Positions 339-14,241 of a stretch of DNA of 32,873 nt are shown here, piece by piece. Origin of the DNA: an uncultured Lachnospiraceae bacterium (GTDB lineage Bacteria; Bacillota; Clostridia; Lachnospirales; Lachnospiraceae). The position numbers were made by a program, and so were the translations under genes. The notes beneath the pieces were generated by a model, which was not told the DNA's origin, did not search any database, and worked only from the letters and a program-made list of their open reading frames with translations. Numbering within the stretch: position 1 is the stretch's first letter; the number at the start of each line of letters is the position of its first letter. The stretch spans positions 1-32,873 of the forward strand of contig CANQAR010000046.1 of the NCBI GenBank assembly GCA_947588845.1, written 5' to 3'.

Positions 339-893
339 ATGGATGCACAGAGAAAGAAAGGAATCCTGGATGTGTGTGTGCTGGCAGTTCTGAAAAAGGG
401 ACCGTCATATGGATACAAGATTATCCGGGACATCAGCCGCTGCATTGACATCTCCGAGTCTACGCTTTATCCGATTCTGAAGCGTCTGGAGCAGAATGGA
501 AGTCTGCGGACCTGCCGCAAAGAGTATAACGGACGGATCAGGAAGTATTATGAACTCACAGAAACGGGACAAAACCGGATCAATGTTTTTCTCGACGAGT
601 GGGAGGAACTTCGCACGATGTATCTGTTCATTGAGGAGGAAAACCGCCAGGTAGCGGAGTCTCCCTTTTGCGGGGGAAATGCCGGAGAGCAGGAGCACGC
701 GGCAGAGGCGGGACCAGAAGCTGAGACGAGCCGGGAACCGGAAATGGAGAGGACGGAAAATGCGGAAGACGGTTCAGGATCGGACGCCGTGAAAAAGACT
801 GATCCGGAAACAGAAGAGTCTGTGGAAGATGAGGTCGGAGCAGAAGCCGCTGCAGCGGACAGAAATACTGTACAAGAGGAGGAACAGGAATGA
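339..893 (+). CDS. PadR-family transcriptional repressor with long acidic tail
   Basis: The first 105 or so residues are a PadR winged helix: an initial helix, the SYGYKIIRDIS recognition segment, the STLYPILKRLEQNG motif and a basic wing ending in YYELTETG. The ATG at 339 is chosen because it lies 7 nt after AGGAGG; the in-frame ATG at 333 is only 1 nt away. After about residue 105 the protein becomes a low-complexity Glu/Ala-rich tail of roughly 80 residues, unusual for the family, where a short dimerisation helix is normal. The stop codon overlaps the next gene's start by 4 nt (ATGA), so the two are translationally coupled. PadR proteins paired with HAAS-domain proteins are known in Firmicutes and are thought to control envelope-stress outputs. 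The inducing signal is not visible. Confidence 0.88.
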   Translation: MDAQRKKGILDVCVLAVLKKGPSYGYKIIRDISRCIDISESTLYPILKRLEQNGSLRTCRKEYNGRIRKYYELTETGQNRINVFLDEWEELRTMYLFIEEENRQVAESPFCGGNAGEQEHAAEAGPEAETSREPEMERTENAEDGSGSDAVKKTDPETEESVEDEVGAEAAAADRNTVQEEEQE

Positions 894-1870
894 AGAAGGA
901 AGAATATTTGAAGAAACTCCGGTTTTTTCTGAGTGATCTTCCGATGGAGGATCTGGAACAGATCGAGGATTTTTATCAGGAACTGATTTATGACGGTCTT
1001 GAGCAGGGATATGCGGAGGAAGAGATACTCAGGCGTTTTGATACGCCGGAGGAAGTAGCGAAGAAGATTCGCGCGGAATACGGAGGACTTGTCGTCTATA
1101 CGGCAAAAGGACAGAGCAAAGAAGAGAAGAAGGGGTATGGCCCTGTTGATATGATCCATTCGATCCGTGTGCAGACGGAGAACATCCGGATTCGAATCCG
1201 GACAGTCGAGAGCGGACCGGTACGCATTTATTTCAAGCCAAAGGAAGGACAGGATATTGTTACATGCAGTGAGGAAAACGGTGTATTTTCTTTTGAACAT
1301 AAGATGAAGGGAGCGTTTCACCTGAGCTGGCTGAATCTGTTTCTCGATTTTAATGTTCTGATTCTGGAAATGCCAGCCTCTTTCGCGGGGAATATCTGGA
1401 TCAAAACGACAAACGCCTCGATCAAAGGGAGCAAAATGATGAACCTTTCCATGGCGGAGCTGATCAGCACGAACGGACGGATCAAGATTGAAAACAGCAG
1501 GATCGACAAGCTGAATATCCGGTCAAACAACGCGCGGATTGAGCTTGCCAATATGAGCGGGAGCAGAGTGGAGGCTGTCGTGGGGAATGGATTTATCACG
1601 GCAAAGGAATGTAAATTCCCGGAGCAGATTCTGCTTGAGACGCAGAACGGTACGCTGAATGGAAAGAATCTGATCAGCGATAATTTTGTTCTTCAGACCT
1701 GCAACGGGCTGATTAACGGAACAGTCATAGGAAATGCGGAGGATTATAATATCGACTGCAGTACGATCAATGGATTCTGCAATCTTGACAGCAGTTACAT
1801 GGCGGGCCGCCAGAAGAACCTGAAAGCGAAGACCCACAACGGACGGATCCAGATTGAATTTGTGATGTAG
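890..1870 (+). CDS. HAAS/DUF1700 + DUF4097 (toastrack) protein
   Basis: Residues 1-65 are an alpha-helical HAAS/DUF1700 domain (KKEEYLKKL, then DLPMEDLEQIEDFYQELI and an EEILRRFDTPEEVAKKI segment). Residues from about 85 to the end are repetitive beta-strand sequence with recurring N-G/A-R/T-I turns (TNGRIKIEN, SNNARIELAN, QNGTLNG, CNGLING, HNGRIQIEF), typical of DUF4097 adhesin-like beta-helix domains. Family members normally carry one or more membrane helices between the two parts; I see no hydrophobic stretch long enough here, so this one looks soluble. It is coupled to the PadR gene by an ATGA overlap and probably acts as its partner in signalling. The biochemical role is unknown. Confidence 0.8.
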   Translation: MKKEEYLKKLRFFLSDLPMEDLEQIEDFYQELIYDGLEQGYAEEEILRRFDTPEEVAKKIRAEYGGLVVYTAKGQSKEEKKGYGPVDMIHSIRVQTENIRIRIRTVESGPVRIYFKPKEGQDIVTCSEENGVFSFEHKMKGAFHLSWLNLFLDFNVLILEMPASFAGNIWIKTTNASIKGSKMMNLSMAELISTNGRIKIENSRIDKLNIRSNNARIELANMSGSRVEAVVGNGFITAKECKFPEQILLETQNGTLNGKNLISDNFVLQTCNGLINGTVIGNAEDYNIDCSTINGFCNLDSSYMAGRQKNLKAKTHNGRIQIEFVM

Positions 1871-1884
1871 ATGTCGGTATTTTG

Positions 1885-1973
1885 ATCGGGCAGGAGGCGG
1901 TTTTCCCTCCTGCTCGCCCGCGCGGCCCAGGTGCTGCGCCAGCAGCTGATTTCCCTGCCTGGGCCTGCATATA
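1885..1973 (+). repeat. 89-nt structured repeat, copy 1
   Basis: Tandem with copy 2 at a period of exactly 89 nt and about 81/89 identity by hand alignment. It folds into two hairpins: an 11-bp stem 1887-1897/1906-1916, and a compound stem with outer arms GGCCCAGGT (1924-1932) and GCCTGGGCC (1957-1965) enclosing GCTGC/GCAGC (1933-1937/1942-1946). A third copy lies inverted at 12688-12775. It lies just after the DUF4097 gene, outside any gene. Confidence 0.85.
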
Positions 1974-2062
1974 ATCGAGTAGGAGTCGGCTTTTCCTCCT
2001 GCTCGCCCGCGCGGCCCAGGTGCTGCGCCAGCAGCTGATTTCCCTACCTGGGCCTGCGCATA
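1974..2062 (+). repeat. 89-nt structured repeat, copy 2
   Basis: Directly abuts copy 1. Hairpin 1 is CGAGTAGGAG/CTCCTGCTCG and hairpin 2 has outer arms GGCCCAGGT/ACCTGGGCC. Differences from copy 1 in the stems keep pairing: the T-G wobble closing the outer stem in copy 1 is T-A here, and a C-G pair in hairpin 1 is T-G here. It ends in TGCGCATA, as does the inverted copy 3. Confidence 0.85.
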
Positions 2063-2073
2063 GACGGAAACAA

Positions 2074-2102
2074 ATAAGGAGCTGCTTTAAGCAGCTCCTT
2101 AT
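2074..2102. terminator. Hairpin terminator between convergent genes
   Basis: A 13-bp perfect stem (2074-2086 with 2090-2102; core AAGGAGCTGCT/AGCAGCTCCTT) closed by a TTA loop. It lies 31 bp beyond the stop of the minus-strand metal ATPase and downstream of the plus-strand DUF4097 gene. Read on the minus strand it is followed by TTTGTTT, so it probably serves mainly the ATPase; there is no T run on the plus side. Confidence 0.7.
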
Positions 2103-2132
2103 CTGTCCAGATGATAAATCTATCTGCGAATC

Positions 2133-4568
2133 TTATTTTTTCTGAAGAATCCGTACGGAATTCAGTACGCACAGAACTGCAACTGCAGTGTCCGCGAATA
2201 CAGCGATCCACATGGATGCAATGCCGCCAAGACCAAGCAGAAGGATGAGAACCTTAACGCCAAGAGCAAGAATAATGTTCTGCCATGCGATACGGCTGGT
2301 CATCTTCGCGATCTTGAGTGCGACCGGAATAGATTCCATGTTCGAATTCATAAATACAGCGTCAGCTACTTCAATTGCCGCATCTGCGCCGTTGCCCATT
2401 GCAGCTCCTACATCAGCAGCAGCAAGGACAGGAGCGTCGTTGATACCGTCGCCTACGTACATAACGGAATCATAAGATCTGCGGATATTGATCAGCTCGG
2501 TAAGTTTATCCTGCGGCATAAGTCTTGCACGCACTTCATCGATACCTGTTTCAGCAGCAACAGCTTCCGCGCTCTCCAGAGAGTCGCCGGTCAGCATTGC
2601 CGTTGTGATTCCCATCTCCTTGAGGCTGGAGACTGAGAAACGTGCATCTGATTTAATCGTATCAGAGATCACGATATGACCAAGGAATGTTCCTCCGCAT
2701 GCAACCAGTACCTCAGTACCATAGGTGCTGTGCTCATAATCGGAGAGGTCAACTCTGTAGCGGTTCATCAGTTTTGCGTTACCAACAAGAAGCAGTCCGT
2801 CCGGAGAATCTACGCGGATACCGTAACCTGCGATCTCTTCTGCGTTTTCCGGTCTCTTCAGTTCCAGCTTCATGTTGTGTGCAGCGTTCACGATGCTTGT
2901 TGCGATCGGGTGAGTGGAAATCAGTTCACATTCAGCGGCGATGCCGAGCAGCTTCTTCGCTGTCATCTCGCCTGCCGGGATGATATCCTGTACAACAAAG
3001 TTTCCTTCTGTGACCGTACCGGTCTTGTCCATGATAACTGCCTTAACACCAGACATACGCTCCATTGCAAGGCCGCCCTTGAAGAGAATGCCGAGCTTGG
3101 AACCGGCGCCGATACCTGAATAGAAGGTAAGCGGTACGCACAGAACCAGCGCGCACGGACAGCTGATTACGAGGAAGGTCAGCGCGGTGTATACCCAGTG
3201 TCCCCAGTTGCCTGTGAACAGAGACGGAAGGATTGCAGTTAAAATTGCAAGAGCTACTACGCACGGTGTGTAGATCTTTGTAAAGCGGGTGATGAAACGG
3301 TCGATTGCCGGCTTGCTTGCAGCAGCGCTCTCGACGGAATCAAGGATTCTGGAAACCATGGACTCTTCCAGAGTCTTCTCAACACGAACCTTGAGCTGTC
3401 CGGTCGTGTTGACGCAGCCGGAAATTACCTCGTCTCCGGATTTGACGTTAACCGGAATCGGCTCGCCTGTGATCGGAGCGGTATCGATGTTGCTTTCGCC
3501 TTCGACAACAACGCCGTCAAGCGGAATTCTGTCGCCCGGCTGAACAAGGATAATCTCGCCTACCTGAGCATCTGCTGCGGCGATTACCTGCAGGCCGCCT
3601 TCCACCAGAAGATTGACAACCTCAGGACGCATATCTGCCGTATCCATAATCTGGCGGCGGCTTCTCTCAACTGCCTTGGCTTCGAAGAACTCGCCGACAC
3701 AGTAGAAGAGCATAACGACAACCGCTTCCGGATATTTGCCGATCGCGAATGCGCCGAGCGTTGCAACGCTCATCAGGAAATACTCGTCAAATACAATGCC
3801 TTTTGCAAGGTTTCTCGCAGCGGTAAGGACAACTCTGCCGCCGAGAAGAATGTAGGCAATAATGTAGATAGGAAGAGTGACAATCAGTCCCTGTCCCTGC
3901 AGAGATACAATGCCGGCCACCAGTAAGAGAAGAGCTCCTCCAATGATGGAGACAAGGCTTCTGACATCATCCGTTACAGCTTTTGTACTTGTTTTGCCTG
4001 CCTCGATCGCAAGGGTGTCGGCGCTTCTCGGCGCGGTGTCCTTCGGAACGACTTCAATCTTGTCGTCGATGGCAGAGCAGATCTCTCTGTACTGCGGAAG
4101 CAGACGGTCAGGATTCGTGCCGGTAACCTTGAGCTGTTTGGTTGCGAATGAAACTGTGGCGCTCATGACATCACCGATCGCGTTGATCTGACGCTCGATT
4201 CTGGAAGCATTCCCCGCATTGTTCAGATTCTTGAGCAGATAAGTCTTTGTTGTGGATGCCTTCCGGGGATCATCCTTCGGGACTACCCTGACTGCGGACT
4301 CGATATCGGTACAAATATCCTGAATCCTCGGAAGAAGGGCTTCCTGATTGTCCGCTACAAGATGAAGCTGTCTGGTCGTATGTGTGATTGATGCGTAGGA
4401 AACACCAGGCAGCTCCTTGATTTTTTTCTCCATCTTGGCAGCACAGTTGGCACTGTCAAGATTCTCGAGGATGTACACCTGTTTTTCTGCCTCGTGGTCC
4501 GGCAGACTACGCGTCGCAGGGACGTGCTGTTCATCCTGTGTCTGTGGGCTTAATAAAGATTCGCTCAT
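2133..4568 (-). CDS. P1B-type heavy-metal ATPase (Zn/Cd/Pb exporter type) with degenerate N-terminal metal domains
   Basis: An 811-residue P-type ATPase that probably exports divalent soft metals across the cytoplasmic membrane. The metal-path motif CPC is at residues 470-472, the phosphorylation motif DKTGT at 514-518, the SxHP motif (STHPIA) of the nucleotide domain follows, and GDGINDAP is near the C-terminus. The CPC-helix context and overall match fit the CadA/ZntA group (P1B-2). Two ferredoxin-like HMA domains precede it (about 31-97 and 108-175), but both lack the CxxC pair: the first keeps one Cys (C42 in DSANCAA) and the second none. The start ATG follows GGAGG by 8 nt. It is monocistronic with its own promoter and operator-like palindrome. 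The metal substrate is inferred, not shown. Confidence 0.9.
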   Translation of the reverse strand: MSESLLSPQTQDEQHVPATRSLPDHEAEKQVYILENLDSANCAAKMEKKIKELPGVSYASITHTTRQLHLVADNQEALLPRIQDICTDIESAVRVVPKDDPRKASTTKTYLLKNLNNAGNASRIERQINAIGDVMSATVSFATKQLKVTGTNPDRLLPQYREICSAIDDKIEVVPKDTAPRSADTLAIEAGKTSTKAVTDDVRSLVSIIGGALLLLVAGIVSLQGQGLIVTLPIYIIAYILLGGRVVLTAARNLAKGIVFDEYFLMSVATLGAFAIGKYPEAVVVMLFYCVGEFFEAKAVERSRRQIMDTADMRPEVVNLLVEGGLQVIAAADAQVGEIILVQPGDRIPLDGVVVEGESNIDTAPITGEPIPVNVKSGDEVISGCVNTTGQLKVRVEKTLEESMVSRILDSVESAAASKPAIDRFITRFTKIYTPCVVALAILTAILPSLFTGNWGHWVYTALTFLVISCPCALVLCVPLTFYSGIGAGSKLGILFKGGLAMERMSGVKAVIMDKTGTVTEGNFVVQDIIPAGEMTAKKLLGIAAECELISTHPIATSIVNAAHNMKLELKRPENAEEIAGYGIRVDSPDGLLLVGNAKLMNRYRVDLSDYEHSTYGTEVLVACGGTFLGHIVISDTIKSDARFSVSSLKEMGITTAMLTGDSLESAEAVAAETGIDEVRARLMPQDKLTELINIRRSYDSVMYVGDGINDAPVLAAADVGAAMGNGADAAIEVADAVFMNSNMESIPVALKIAKMTSRIAWQNIILALGVKVLILLLGLGGIASMWIAVFADTAVAVLCVLNSVRILQKK

Positions 4569-12480: not shown

Positions 12481-12627
12481 GTGAAACATATTAAGACACT
12501 GAATACAAAGTCTTTGCAGAACACATTGAAGAAGGGCGGCTGCGGCGAGTGCCAGACATCCTGCCAGTCTGCATGCAAGACATCCTGCACGGTAGGCAAT
12601 CAGACATGCGAAAGCAATAATAAATAA
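12481..12627 (+). CDS. scfA: SCIFF ranthipeptide precursor (six Cys in forty-five residues)
   Basis: A 48-residue peptide with a basic leader-like N-terminus (MKHIKTLNTKSLQNTLKK) and a core with six cysteines at positions 21, 24, 28, 32, 36 and 43. This is the SCIFF pattern described by Haft and Basu, found in nearly all Clostridia next to a radical SAM maturase. The start is GTG at 12481, 9 nt after a perfect AGGAGG; a longer upstream frame has no such site. The maturase in this family installs thioether bridges between Cys thiols and non-alpha carbons of partner residues (ranthipeptides). The candidate acceptor Thr residues lie in the core (T27, T34, T37, T42). The mature product's role is unsettled; population-level signalling has been proposed in solvent-forming clostridia. 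It is followed by a strong hairpin and then the maturase. Confidence 0.95.
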   Translation: MKHIKTLNTKSLQNTLKKGGCGECQTSCQSACKTSCTVGNQTCESNNK

Positions 12628-12644: not shown

Positions 12645-12678
12645 AGGAAGTGCAGCGGCCTGGGCCGCTGCACTTCCT
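12645..12678 (+). other. Perfect 16-bp hairpin between scfA and scfB
   Basis: AGGAAGTGCAGCGGCC (12645-12660) pairs perfectly with GGCCGCTGCACTTCCT (12663-12678) around TG. It starts 18 nt after the scfA stop. No T run follows, so it is more likely an RNA-stability or partial-termination element that would favour scfA peptide over scfB enzyme. Confidence 0.75.
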
Positions 12679-12687
12679 GTATGTGCT

Positions 12688-12775
12688 TATGCGCAGGCCC
12701 GCATATGGAGAACAGCTGCTGACGCAGCATGCGGGCCGCGCGGCGGGCAGGAGGGGAAACTGCCTCCCGCTCGAT
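12688..12775 (-). repeat. 89-nt structured repeat, copy 3 (inverted)
   Basis: The reverse complement aligns along its whole length with copies 1 and 2 (ATCGAG at the start, GGCAGGAGG-type hairpin 1, CGCGCGGCCC, GCTGCG-CAGCAGCTG, then TGCGCATA at the end). The outer stem here is GGCCCGCAT/ATGCGGGCC instead of GGCCCAGGT/ACCTGGGCC: both arms changed together and pairing is kept. It sits between scfA and scfB on the transcribed strand in inverted orientation. Confidence 0.8.
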
Positions 12776-12829: not shown

Positions 12830-12861
12830 GTTGCGTGTGGAAGAGAAAGCGGGGAATGCAC

Positions 12862-14241
12862 GTGATTCATCAGTACAGGAACAATGGCTACAGCATTGTG
12901 CTCGACGTGAACAGCGGCGCCGTTCACGTTGTAGATGACCTGGTTTATGATGTAATAGAATTGCTTGACGCGGGAGAATCCCGGGAGTCTGTAAAGGACA
13001 GACTGAAACATAAATATGACAGCGCCCAGATTGAGGAAGCGCTTGAGGAATGTGAGGAACTGGAGAAGCAGGGAGTTCTTTTCACGGAAGATATCTATGA
13101 GAAAGCGATCATGGATTTTAAGGCCAGAAAGACGGTTGTGAAGGCTCTCTGTCTGCATATCGCGCATGACTGCAATCTTGCCTGCCGTTACTGTTTTGCG
13201 GAGGAAGGGGAATATCACGGGCGCAGAGCGCTGATGAGCTTTGAAGTAGGAAAGAAAGCGCTCGATTTTCTGATTGCGAATTCCGGCGCGCGGCGGAATC
13301 TGGAGGTTGACTTCTTCGGAGGCGAGCCTCTGATGAACTGGCAGGTGGTGAAGGATCTTGTCGCCTACGGCAGAGAGCAGGAGAAGCTTCATAATAAGAA
13401 TTTCCGTTTTACGCTGACAACGAACGGCGTGCTGCTCGACGATGAGGTGATGGAATTCTGCAACCGCGAGATGGCGAATGTCGTGCTGAGTATTGACGGC
13501 AGAAAGGAAGTCCATGATTTCATGCGTCCGTTCCGAAAAGGGAAGGGCAGTTATGATCTGGTGCTGCCGAAGTTCCAGAAATTCGCCGAGAGCCGCGGCC
13601 AGAAAAATTATTACGCGCGTGGTACATTTACAAGGCATAATCTTGATTTTTCCAGAGATGTCATGCATCTTGCAGATCTTGGCTTCAAACAGATTTCGGT
13701 GGAGCCGGTTGTTGCTCCGGAATCGGAGGAATATGCGCTTCGCAGGGAAGATCTGCCGCAGATTTTCGCGGAGTATGACCGCCTTGCGGCCGAGATGGTG
13801 CGCCGGGAGGAAGAAGGGAACGGATTTACGTTTTTCCATTTCATGATGGATCTGACGGGCGGCCCCTGTGTATACAAGCGTCTGTCCGGCTGTGGTTCCG
13901 GAACAGAGTATCTGGCGGTCACGCCGTGGGGCGATTTTTATCCCTGCCATCAGTTTGTCGGACACGAGGAATATCTGATGGGAAATGTGGATGAGGGGAT
14001 CACCCGGCAGGATATCGTCGATGAATTCAAGTGCTGCAATGTCTACACGAAGGAGAAGTGCCGGAACTGTTTTGCGAAGTTCTACTGCAGCGGCGGATGC
14101 GCGGCGAATTCCTACAATTTCCACGGCACGATCCAGGATGCGTACGATATCGGCTGCGAGCTCCAGAGAAAGCGCGTGGAGTGCGCACTTATGATCAAGG
14201 CAGCGTTAGCTGAAAAAGAAGAAAAAGGAGAAGTACAATGA
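12862..14241 (+). CDS. scfB: SCIFF radical SAM maturase (SPASM domain)
   Basis: A 459-residue radical SAM peptide-modifying enzyme that acts on the ScfA peptide. The start is taken as GTG at 12862 because the family begins with the (M)IHQYxNNGYxIVLDVNSG signature and GGGGA lies 7 nt upstream; ATG 12856 sits directly against that site. Residues 1-85 form a peptide-recognition (RRE-like) domain. The CxxxCxxC cluster is C104, C108 and C111 (CNLACRYC), followed by the GGEP motif (FFGGEPLMNW). The C-terminal SPASM region holds many cysteines (GCGSGTEY, YPCHQF, CCN, CRNCFAKFYCSGGC, GCEL) for two auxiliary 4Fe-4S clusters. It overlaps secDF by ATGA, so the modification enzyme is coupled to a translocase subunit gene. 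Confidence 0.95.
   Translation: MIHQYRNNGYSIVLDVNSGAVHVVDDLVYDVIELLDAGESRESVKDRLKHKYDSAQIEEALEECEELEKQGVLFTEDIYEKAIMDFKARKTVVKALCLHIAHDCNLACRYCFAEEGEYHGRRALMSFEVGKKALDFLIANSGARRNLEVDFFGGEPLMNWQVVKDLVAYGREQEKLHNKNFRFTLTTNGVLLDDEVMEFCNREMANVVLSIDGRKEVHDFMRPFRKGKGSYDLVLPKFQKFAESRGQKNYYARGTFTRHNLDFSRDVMHLADLGFKQISVEPVVAPESEEYALRREDLPQIFAEYDRLAAEMVRREEEGNGFTFFHFMMDLTGGPCVYKRLSGCGSGTEYLAVTPWGDFYPCHQFVGHEEYLMGNVDEGITRQDIVDEFKCCNVYTKEKCRNCFAKFYCSGGCAANSYNFHGTIQDAYDIGCELQRKRVECALMIKAALAEKEEKGEVQ

Follow-up and report, generated by a model that had tools for sequence, protein, structure and literature searches.

A structured, REP-like repeat family adjoining terminator-like hairpins in the chromosome of a gut Lachnospiraceae bacterium

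The window analysed here is a whole stretch of 32,873 nucleotides from an uncultured Lachnospiraceae bacterium (contig CANQAR010000046.1), in which a repeat of 89 nt occurs as a tandem pair and as a distant inverted copy (Table 1). These copies belong to a real, structured, REP-like repeat family in the chromosome of this gut bacterium. The terminator-like hairpin that lies by the 3' end of the repeat is its most informative feature and was absent from an earlier reading of the window made from the sequence alone; the orientation-specific link between the repeat and such hairpins is strong and is new here. The family is most likely mobile, and we think it probable that it is a REP-like, non-autonomous, non-coding mobile repeat of Lachnospiraceae chromosomes that targets terminators.

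The Repeat Folds as a Single Strand

The sequence-only reading had placed the tandem units and the inverted unit correctly, and the two hairpins it described are common to all three. Units 1 and 2 share 91% identity at a spacing of 89. The letters given for the outer stem of hairpin 2 were right, including GGCCCAGGT/ACCTGGGCC and GGCCCGCAT/ATGCGGGCC, and the arms covary, with a single T-G wobble in unit 1. Folded as single-stranded DNA against 200 shuffles each, units 1, 2, and 3 gave z values of -3.3, -5.5, and -4.4, the fold of unit 1 being equalled by one of its shuffles, and the tandem pair folded as RNA gave -5.8. Taken by themselves, the stem changes among the three copies in the window could be explained by common descent.

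The compensatory changes held up in two larger sets. Alignment A3 consists of 130 matches (115 distinct) fitted to R1, a covariance model built from 44 units (alignment A1); 95.9% of its cells pair against 91.2% in shuffles, and both sides changed at 11 of 19 pairs against 5.2 in shuffles. Alignment A4, made by sequence only from 42 units that were mostly of other species and drawn from R1 matches, showed 97.1% pairing against 87.0% in shuffles and at most 45.6% in slid versions, with both-side changes at 16 of 28 pairs against 8.3 and at most 6, respectively. Pairing exceeded every slid control in both sets. All five measures in A3 lay above 500 of 500 shuffles, as did four of the five in A4, where 2 of 500 shuffles attained the count of further pair types. 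Having been collected with a model that already scored pairing, the two sets are biased towards structure. Mispairs comprised 53 G-U (18 at one closing pair), 13 A-C, and 21 others, and this excess of G-U over A-C identifies one strand, running from ATCGAG to GCGCATA, as the folded one. The proposal of selection on a folded nucleic acid is therefore upheld in the form of a folded single strand. Conspicuous among the conserved parts are the GCGCATA tail and a TTCC-containing, A/T-rich segment that is unpaired; the conserved internal loop of the folded strand reads about AAATTTCC.

Copy Number and Distribution

BLAST located the repeat at 45 or more places in its own genome (40 of 257 candidates scored). 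R1 raised this to at least 151 copies, a lower bound because 150 of 4842 first-look candidates were scored. The same model matched in 24 of 36 genomes of the genus and in 1 of 24 genomes of other families; a cross-species model, R2, built from the 42 units of A4 and run on 25 of the 36, added one genome, bringing the genus total to 25 of 36. The search of the genome and its relatives that the earlier reading had suggested as a check yielded further copies. In a sample of the order, with 12 candidates scored per genome, 14 of 344 genomes matched R2 at 1e-6 including the own genome, that is, 13 of 343 others; one other genome held at least 12 copies and the remaining matches had 1-5. Most of the 22 units inspected from this sample kept the two-hairpin plan with new stem sequences. 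BLAST of window positions 1885-2062 found no match in plasmids and phages, and viral contigs had no match to one degenerate hairpin-1 pattern. Rfam gave no match at the gathering score for five loci, and the best sub-threshold score for window positions 1800-2120, at E up to 10, was 15.6 bits, so the repeat stands, as first described, outside any named family; the literature searches made turned up no publication on such a repeat.

Position beside Terminator-Like Hairpins

An A-run usually lies to the right of the tail, followed by a stem-loop that varies between loci. In many cases this hairpin stands at the end of a gene on its far side whose transcription runs in the direction of the repeat. 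Hairpins starting within 15 nt of a flank were scored at five thresholds, after 8 of 101 arrays had been dropped for having a unit under 30 bits. When the own genome was pooled with that of a related species (G006), a score of at least 22 was reached at 61 of 93 right flanks and 2 of 92 left flanks, compared with 3.1% of random places and 5.0% of non-coding-like ones (2000 each). With the threshold lowered to 16 the corresponding values were 76/93, 27/92, 28.9%, and 27.6%. The asymmetry was replicated at 22 in other genera (right 15/20, left 1/19) and in other genomes of the genus (right 21/33, left 5/33), two edge or misplaced loci (L300 and L308) being left out. The sole preference of the left flank was a purine at -1 (83 of 93); no conserved target tetranucleotide, as a PATE derived from IS200/IS605 would need, was present 5' of the folded strand in the 93 left flanks. 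At one locus (L188:3185-3210) a solo hairpin-1-like palindrome serves as the terminator-like neighbour of a full copy.

Gene context was taken from codon-scored genes, which replaced a noisy first gene context and still missed the small SCIFF gene. The 62 arrays, 3 of which overlap a called gene, with 3 further arrays at stretch edges, were convergent in 24 cases, had the left gene pointing away and the right gene pointing at the repeat in 23, both genes forward in 12, and divergent genes in 3. Unit 3 was counted as divergent with the SCIFF gene uncalled; its proper class is left away, right pointing at the repeat. In this order of classes a right hairpin of at least 18 was found at 19/24, 21/23, 6/12, and 1/3 arrays, and a left one at 3/24, 3/23, 3/12, and 1/3. 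The bias of strand against GC skew (44 of 62) is confounded by gene orientation and was not used.

These counts bear on an alternative that we regard as unlikely, if the least so of those weighed, namely a cis-acting RNA element of the 3' untranslated region (an mRNA stabiliser, processing site, or termination aid) that transcript selection retains between stop codon and terminator. A single folded, G-U tolerant strand would be expected of it, 36 of 62 arrays have a left gene directed into them, 22 of these lying within 20 nt of its stop, and a terminator-like hairpin comes next. In the other 26 arrays, however, the left gene points away, so that, judged by gene direction alone, the folded strand lies outside the 3' untranslated region of that gene and is not consistently within a neighbour's transcript. 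Since the right hairpin is present in nearly all left-away, right-towards arrays, the link is not explained by such placement alone. The patchy occurrence in the genus, the different loci occupied in related species, and the mixed stem types within arrays also speak against a cis-acting element.

Evidence for and against Movement

Sixteen orthologous loci were compared between the own genome and G006, absence being defined as no profile hit at the orthologous locus: 4 were shared, 7 were occupied in the own genome only, and 5 in the other only. The hairpin was clearly conserved at 5 of the 12 repeat-free sites, and base-level alignments of these sites were mostly too diverged to read. No target-site duplication, as the miniature inverted-repeat transposable element (MITE) of a DDE transposon would have, was detected in 56 arrays; over 168 comparisons the highest z was 2.5. 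Outer stems were perfect in 15 of 18 terminator-proximal units, 12 of 22 inner units, and 61 of 75 single units, and some arrays contain mixed stem types. This pattern fits later arrivals at the terminator side, and fits recombination too.

We infer that the copies move and are not merely lost, and that the terminator is their target. The folded strand (5'-ATCGAG...GCGCATA-3') forms its two hairpins, with selection maintaining the fold. Movement would involve a single-stranded intermediate, recognised by its hairpins, on which a putative enzyme acts in trans. The landing site of a new copy would be the T-tract of an intrinsic terminator, with only one orientation used, and the 3' end of the folded strand would then meet an A-run (a T-run on the other strand) and next the host hairpin. 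Repeated landing at one terminator, together with local duplication, may produce the tandem arrays.

Several observations weigh against this reading. No matching terminator was seen at 7 of the 12 empty sites and intergenic divergence hid the exact junctions, so that loss may explain the species differences. The pairing difference between terminal and internal units is not significant (p 0.09), and slippage or recombination can be the source of tandem arrays. The position could be retained by selection and not chosen at insertion. Only half of the both-forward arrays carry the right hairpin, and the preponderance of 23 arrays over 12 in the co-directional classes falls short of significance by itself (p 0.09). 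Finally, a search for the RAYT family and for reverse transcriptases across the 36 genomes of the genus found no mobilising enzyme.

Mobile DNA can settle safely at terminators, the known case being group IIC introns. With a terminator address, a clear folded strand, and natural presence and absence, a very small non-coding repeat would make target choice by small bacterial repeats directly testable.

Comparison with REP/RAYT Systems

The suggestion that the repeat is REP-like survives in part. It is a dispersed, high-copy, structured intergenic family and, like the REP/BIME elements that go with a RAYT (TnpAREP), it is short and lies mostly at gene ends. Unlike these, each unit has two unrelated hairpins, the arrays are head-to-tail, terminator-like hairpins are abutted in a fixed orientation, and no catalytically intact RAYT was found in the genome. 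By definition, RAYT-associated REPs carry the tetranucleotide GT[AG]G, or else CGTC, at the foot of the hairpin (PMC6006769, PMC3733652). The unit alignments have no conserved GT[AG]G foot; GTAG lies inside the paired hairpin-1 stem of T-variants, with GCAG in C-variants.

A true REP/RAYT system, in which a RAYT with its HUH motif and tyrosine moves the hairpins, is accordingly improbable. A RAYT-family match at E<=1e-10 occurs in 1 of the 36 genomes of the genus, and that one lies below the family cut-off. The own genome (96.9% complete) contains no cognate RAYT with HUH and tyrosine, only a single-copy HUH-less relative (Table 1) that is present in 34 of the 36 genomes, and none of 30 aligned orthologues of this relative in the genus has the motif. 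HxH is missing in 51 of 54 scored rows (4 of 58 with an unaligned motif were left out), the exceptions being two Salipaludibacillus records and one from Halomonas. All 11 genomes of the genus in which no repeat was detected contain the relative, as do 23 of the 25 repeat-bearing ones; the relative therefore does not track the repeat, and the co-occurring REP-associated transposase proposed as a check failed to appear. The protein is nonetheless under purifying selection (dN/dS 0.066-0.201, seven pairs), and one may ask what function a domesticated transposase has when it no longer catalyses. We offer only tentatively, as a doubtful extension, that small chromosomal repeats landing on an intrinsic terminator (DNA hairpin plus T-tract) now have this enzyme-dead, strongly selected RAYT as their hairpin-binding partner.

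Retroelements, Introns, and Other Known Elements

Slightly more doubtful still is a retroelement resembling a short interspersed element, whose folded-strand RNA, ending by the A-run, would be reverse-transcribed from the terminator T-tract as primer. The A-run against the T-tract in fixed orientation and the failure to detect target duplication agree with it. Within the genus, 19 of the 25 genomes with the repeat and 3 of the 11 without it have a match to reverse transcriptase (PF00078, E<=1e-10; Fisher p 0.010, uncorrected for kinship, genome size, and completeness). Places with hairpin 2 only outnumber those with hairpin 1 only by 23 to 10 (p 0.035), a biased count because hairpin 2, the longer of the two, is more readily detected and because the places with one hairpin include internal deletions and pieces of arrays. 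On the other side, six repeat-bearing genomes have no match, three of them 97-100% complete (G009, G011, G012) and three 71-85% (G006, G020, G029), and for this reason reverse transcriptase as the mover is kept as a rival only. The reverse transcriptase of the own genome, moreover, looks like that of a diversity-generating retroelement. Its locus (L236, G000:C92), with an Avd-like gene upstream, below the cut-off, and by eye a holin-like open reading frame downstream, resembles such an element carried by a prophage.

Group IIC introns likewise land just past intrinsic terminators (PMC8919778). The present repeat differs from them in being 89 nt long, with no ribozyme match, no reverse transcriptase of its own, and the opposite strand folded. 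That it is a degenerate group IIC intron, or the MITE of an ordinary DDE transposon, is very improbable: no terminal inverted repeats were visible by eye, target duplication and Rfam matches are lacking as reported above, and Rfam searches of repeat loci did not find the group II ribozyme core. The only reverse transcriptase of the own genome scores 100 bits, the cut-off for group II being 300, and the folded strand would be opposite to that expected of a sense-oriented intron. The PATE and SMR-A elements of Haloquadratum (PMC3119063) share with the repeat a length of about 100 bp and the lack of target duplication. Palindromes also serve as insertion sites for SMR-A elements, but the palindromes that SMRs enter belong to other mobile elements and SMRs end in inverted termini, whereas our repeat lies by host terminators and no inverted termini were seen. 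The own genome also holds one intact IS200/IS605 TnpA/TnpB element and decayed copies, whose end hairpins are, by eye only, unlike the repeat.

Neighbouring Features and Other Repeats

The palindrome beyond unit 2 sits between convergent genes at 890-1870 (+) and 2133-4568 (-). Unit 3 is flanked by the gene of a SCIFF six-cysteine peptide (12481-12627, +) and that of its radical SAM maturase (12856-14241); it lies antisense to the SCIFF gene, past the hairpin that follows that gene.

Table 1: Coordinates of the repeat units and associated features.
Feature	Position	Strand	Remarks
Repeat unit 1, 5' member of tandem pair	1885..1973	+	Hairpin 1 ~1887-1916; hairpin 2 ~1920-1970
Repeat unit 2, terminator-proximal	1974..2062	+	Hairpin 1 1976-2005; hairpin 2 2009-2059; tail GCGCATA
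Terminator-like palindrome, locus-specific, abuts 3' end of array	2076..2100	.	Read from sequence
Terminator-like palindrome, locus-specific, adjoins 3' end of unit 3	12645..12678	.	Read from sequence
Repeat unit 3, inverted copy, 88 nt	12688..12775	-	
RAYT-fold protein without HUH, single-copy	L040:1456-1998 (G000:C23:15778-16317)		

A second palindromic repeat (TGTCACAGGACGAAATTTCCTGTGA) occurs mostly after T-runs (loci L216, L219, L220, L225, L229, L231, and L233). It was found at 9 places in 408 kb of the own genome, with the element coming immediately after it at 3 of these, and at none in 386 kb of G006. At two loci from another family (L292 and L296), the hairpin-1 sequence of the unit recurs in a palindrome just after it (ATAGTAAACGAC), which may represent a more complete version of the element. 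A de novo search of 400 kb of the repeat-less genome G023 gave no dispersed family, only CRISPR and local hairpin arrays: a CRISPR-like array lies near 80297-81117 of contig C31 (L200), which also has tandem arrays of small hairpins at about 308 kb and 343 kb.
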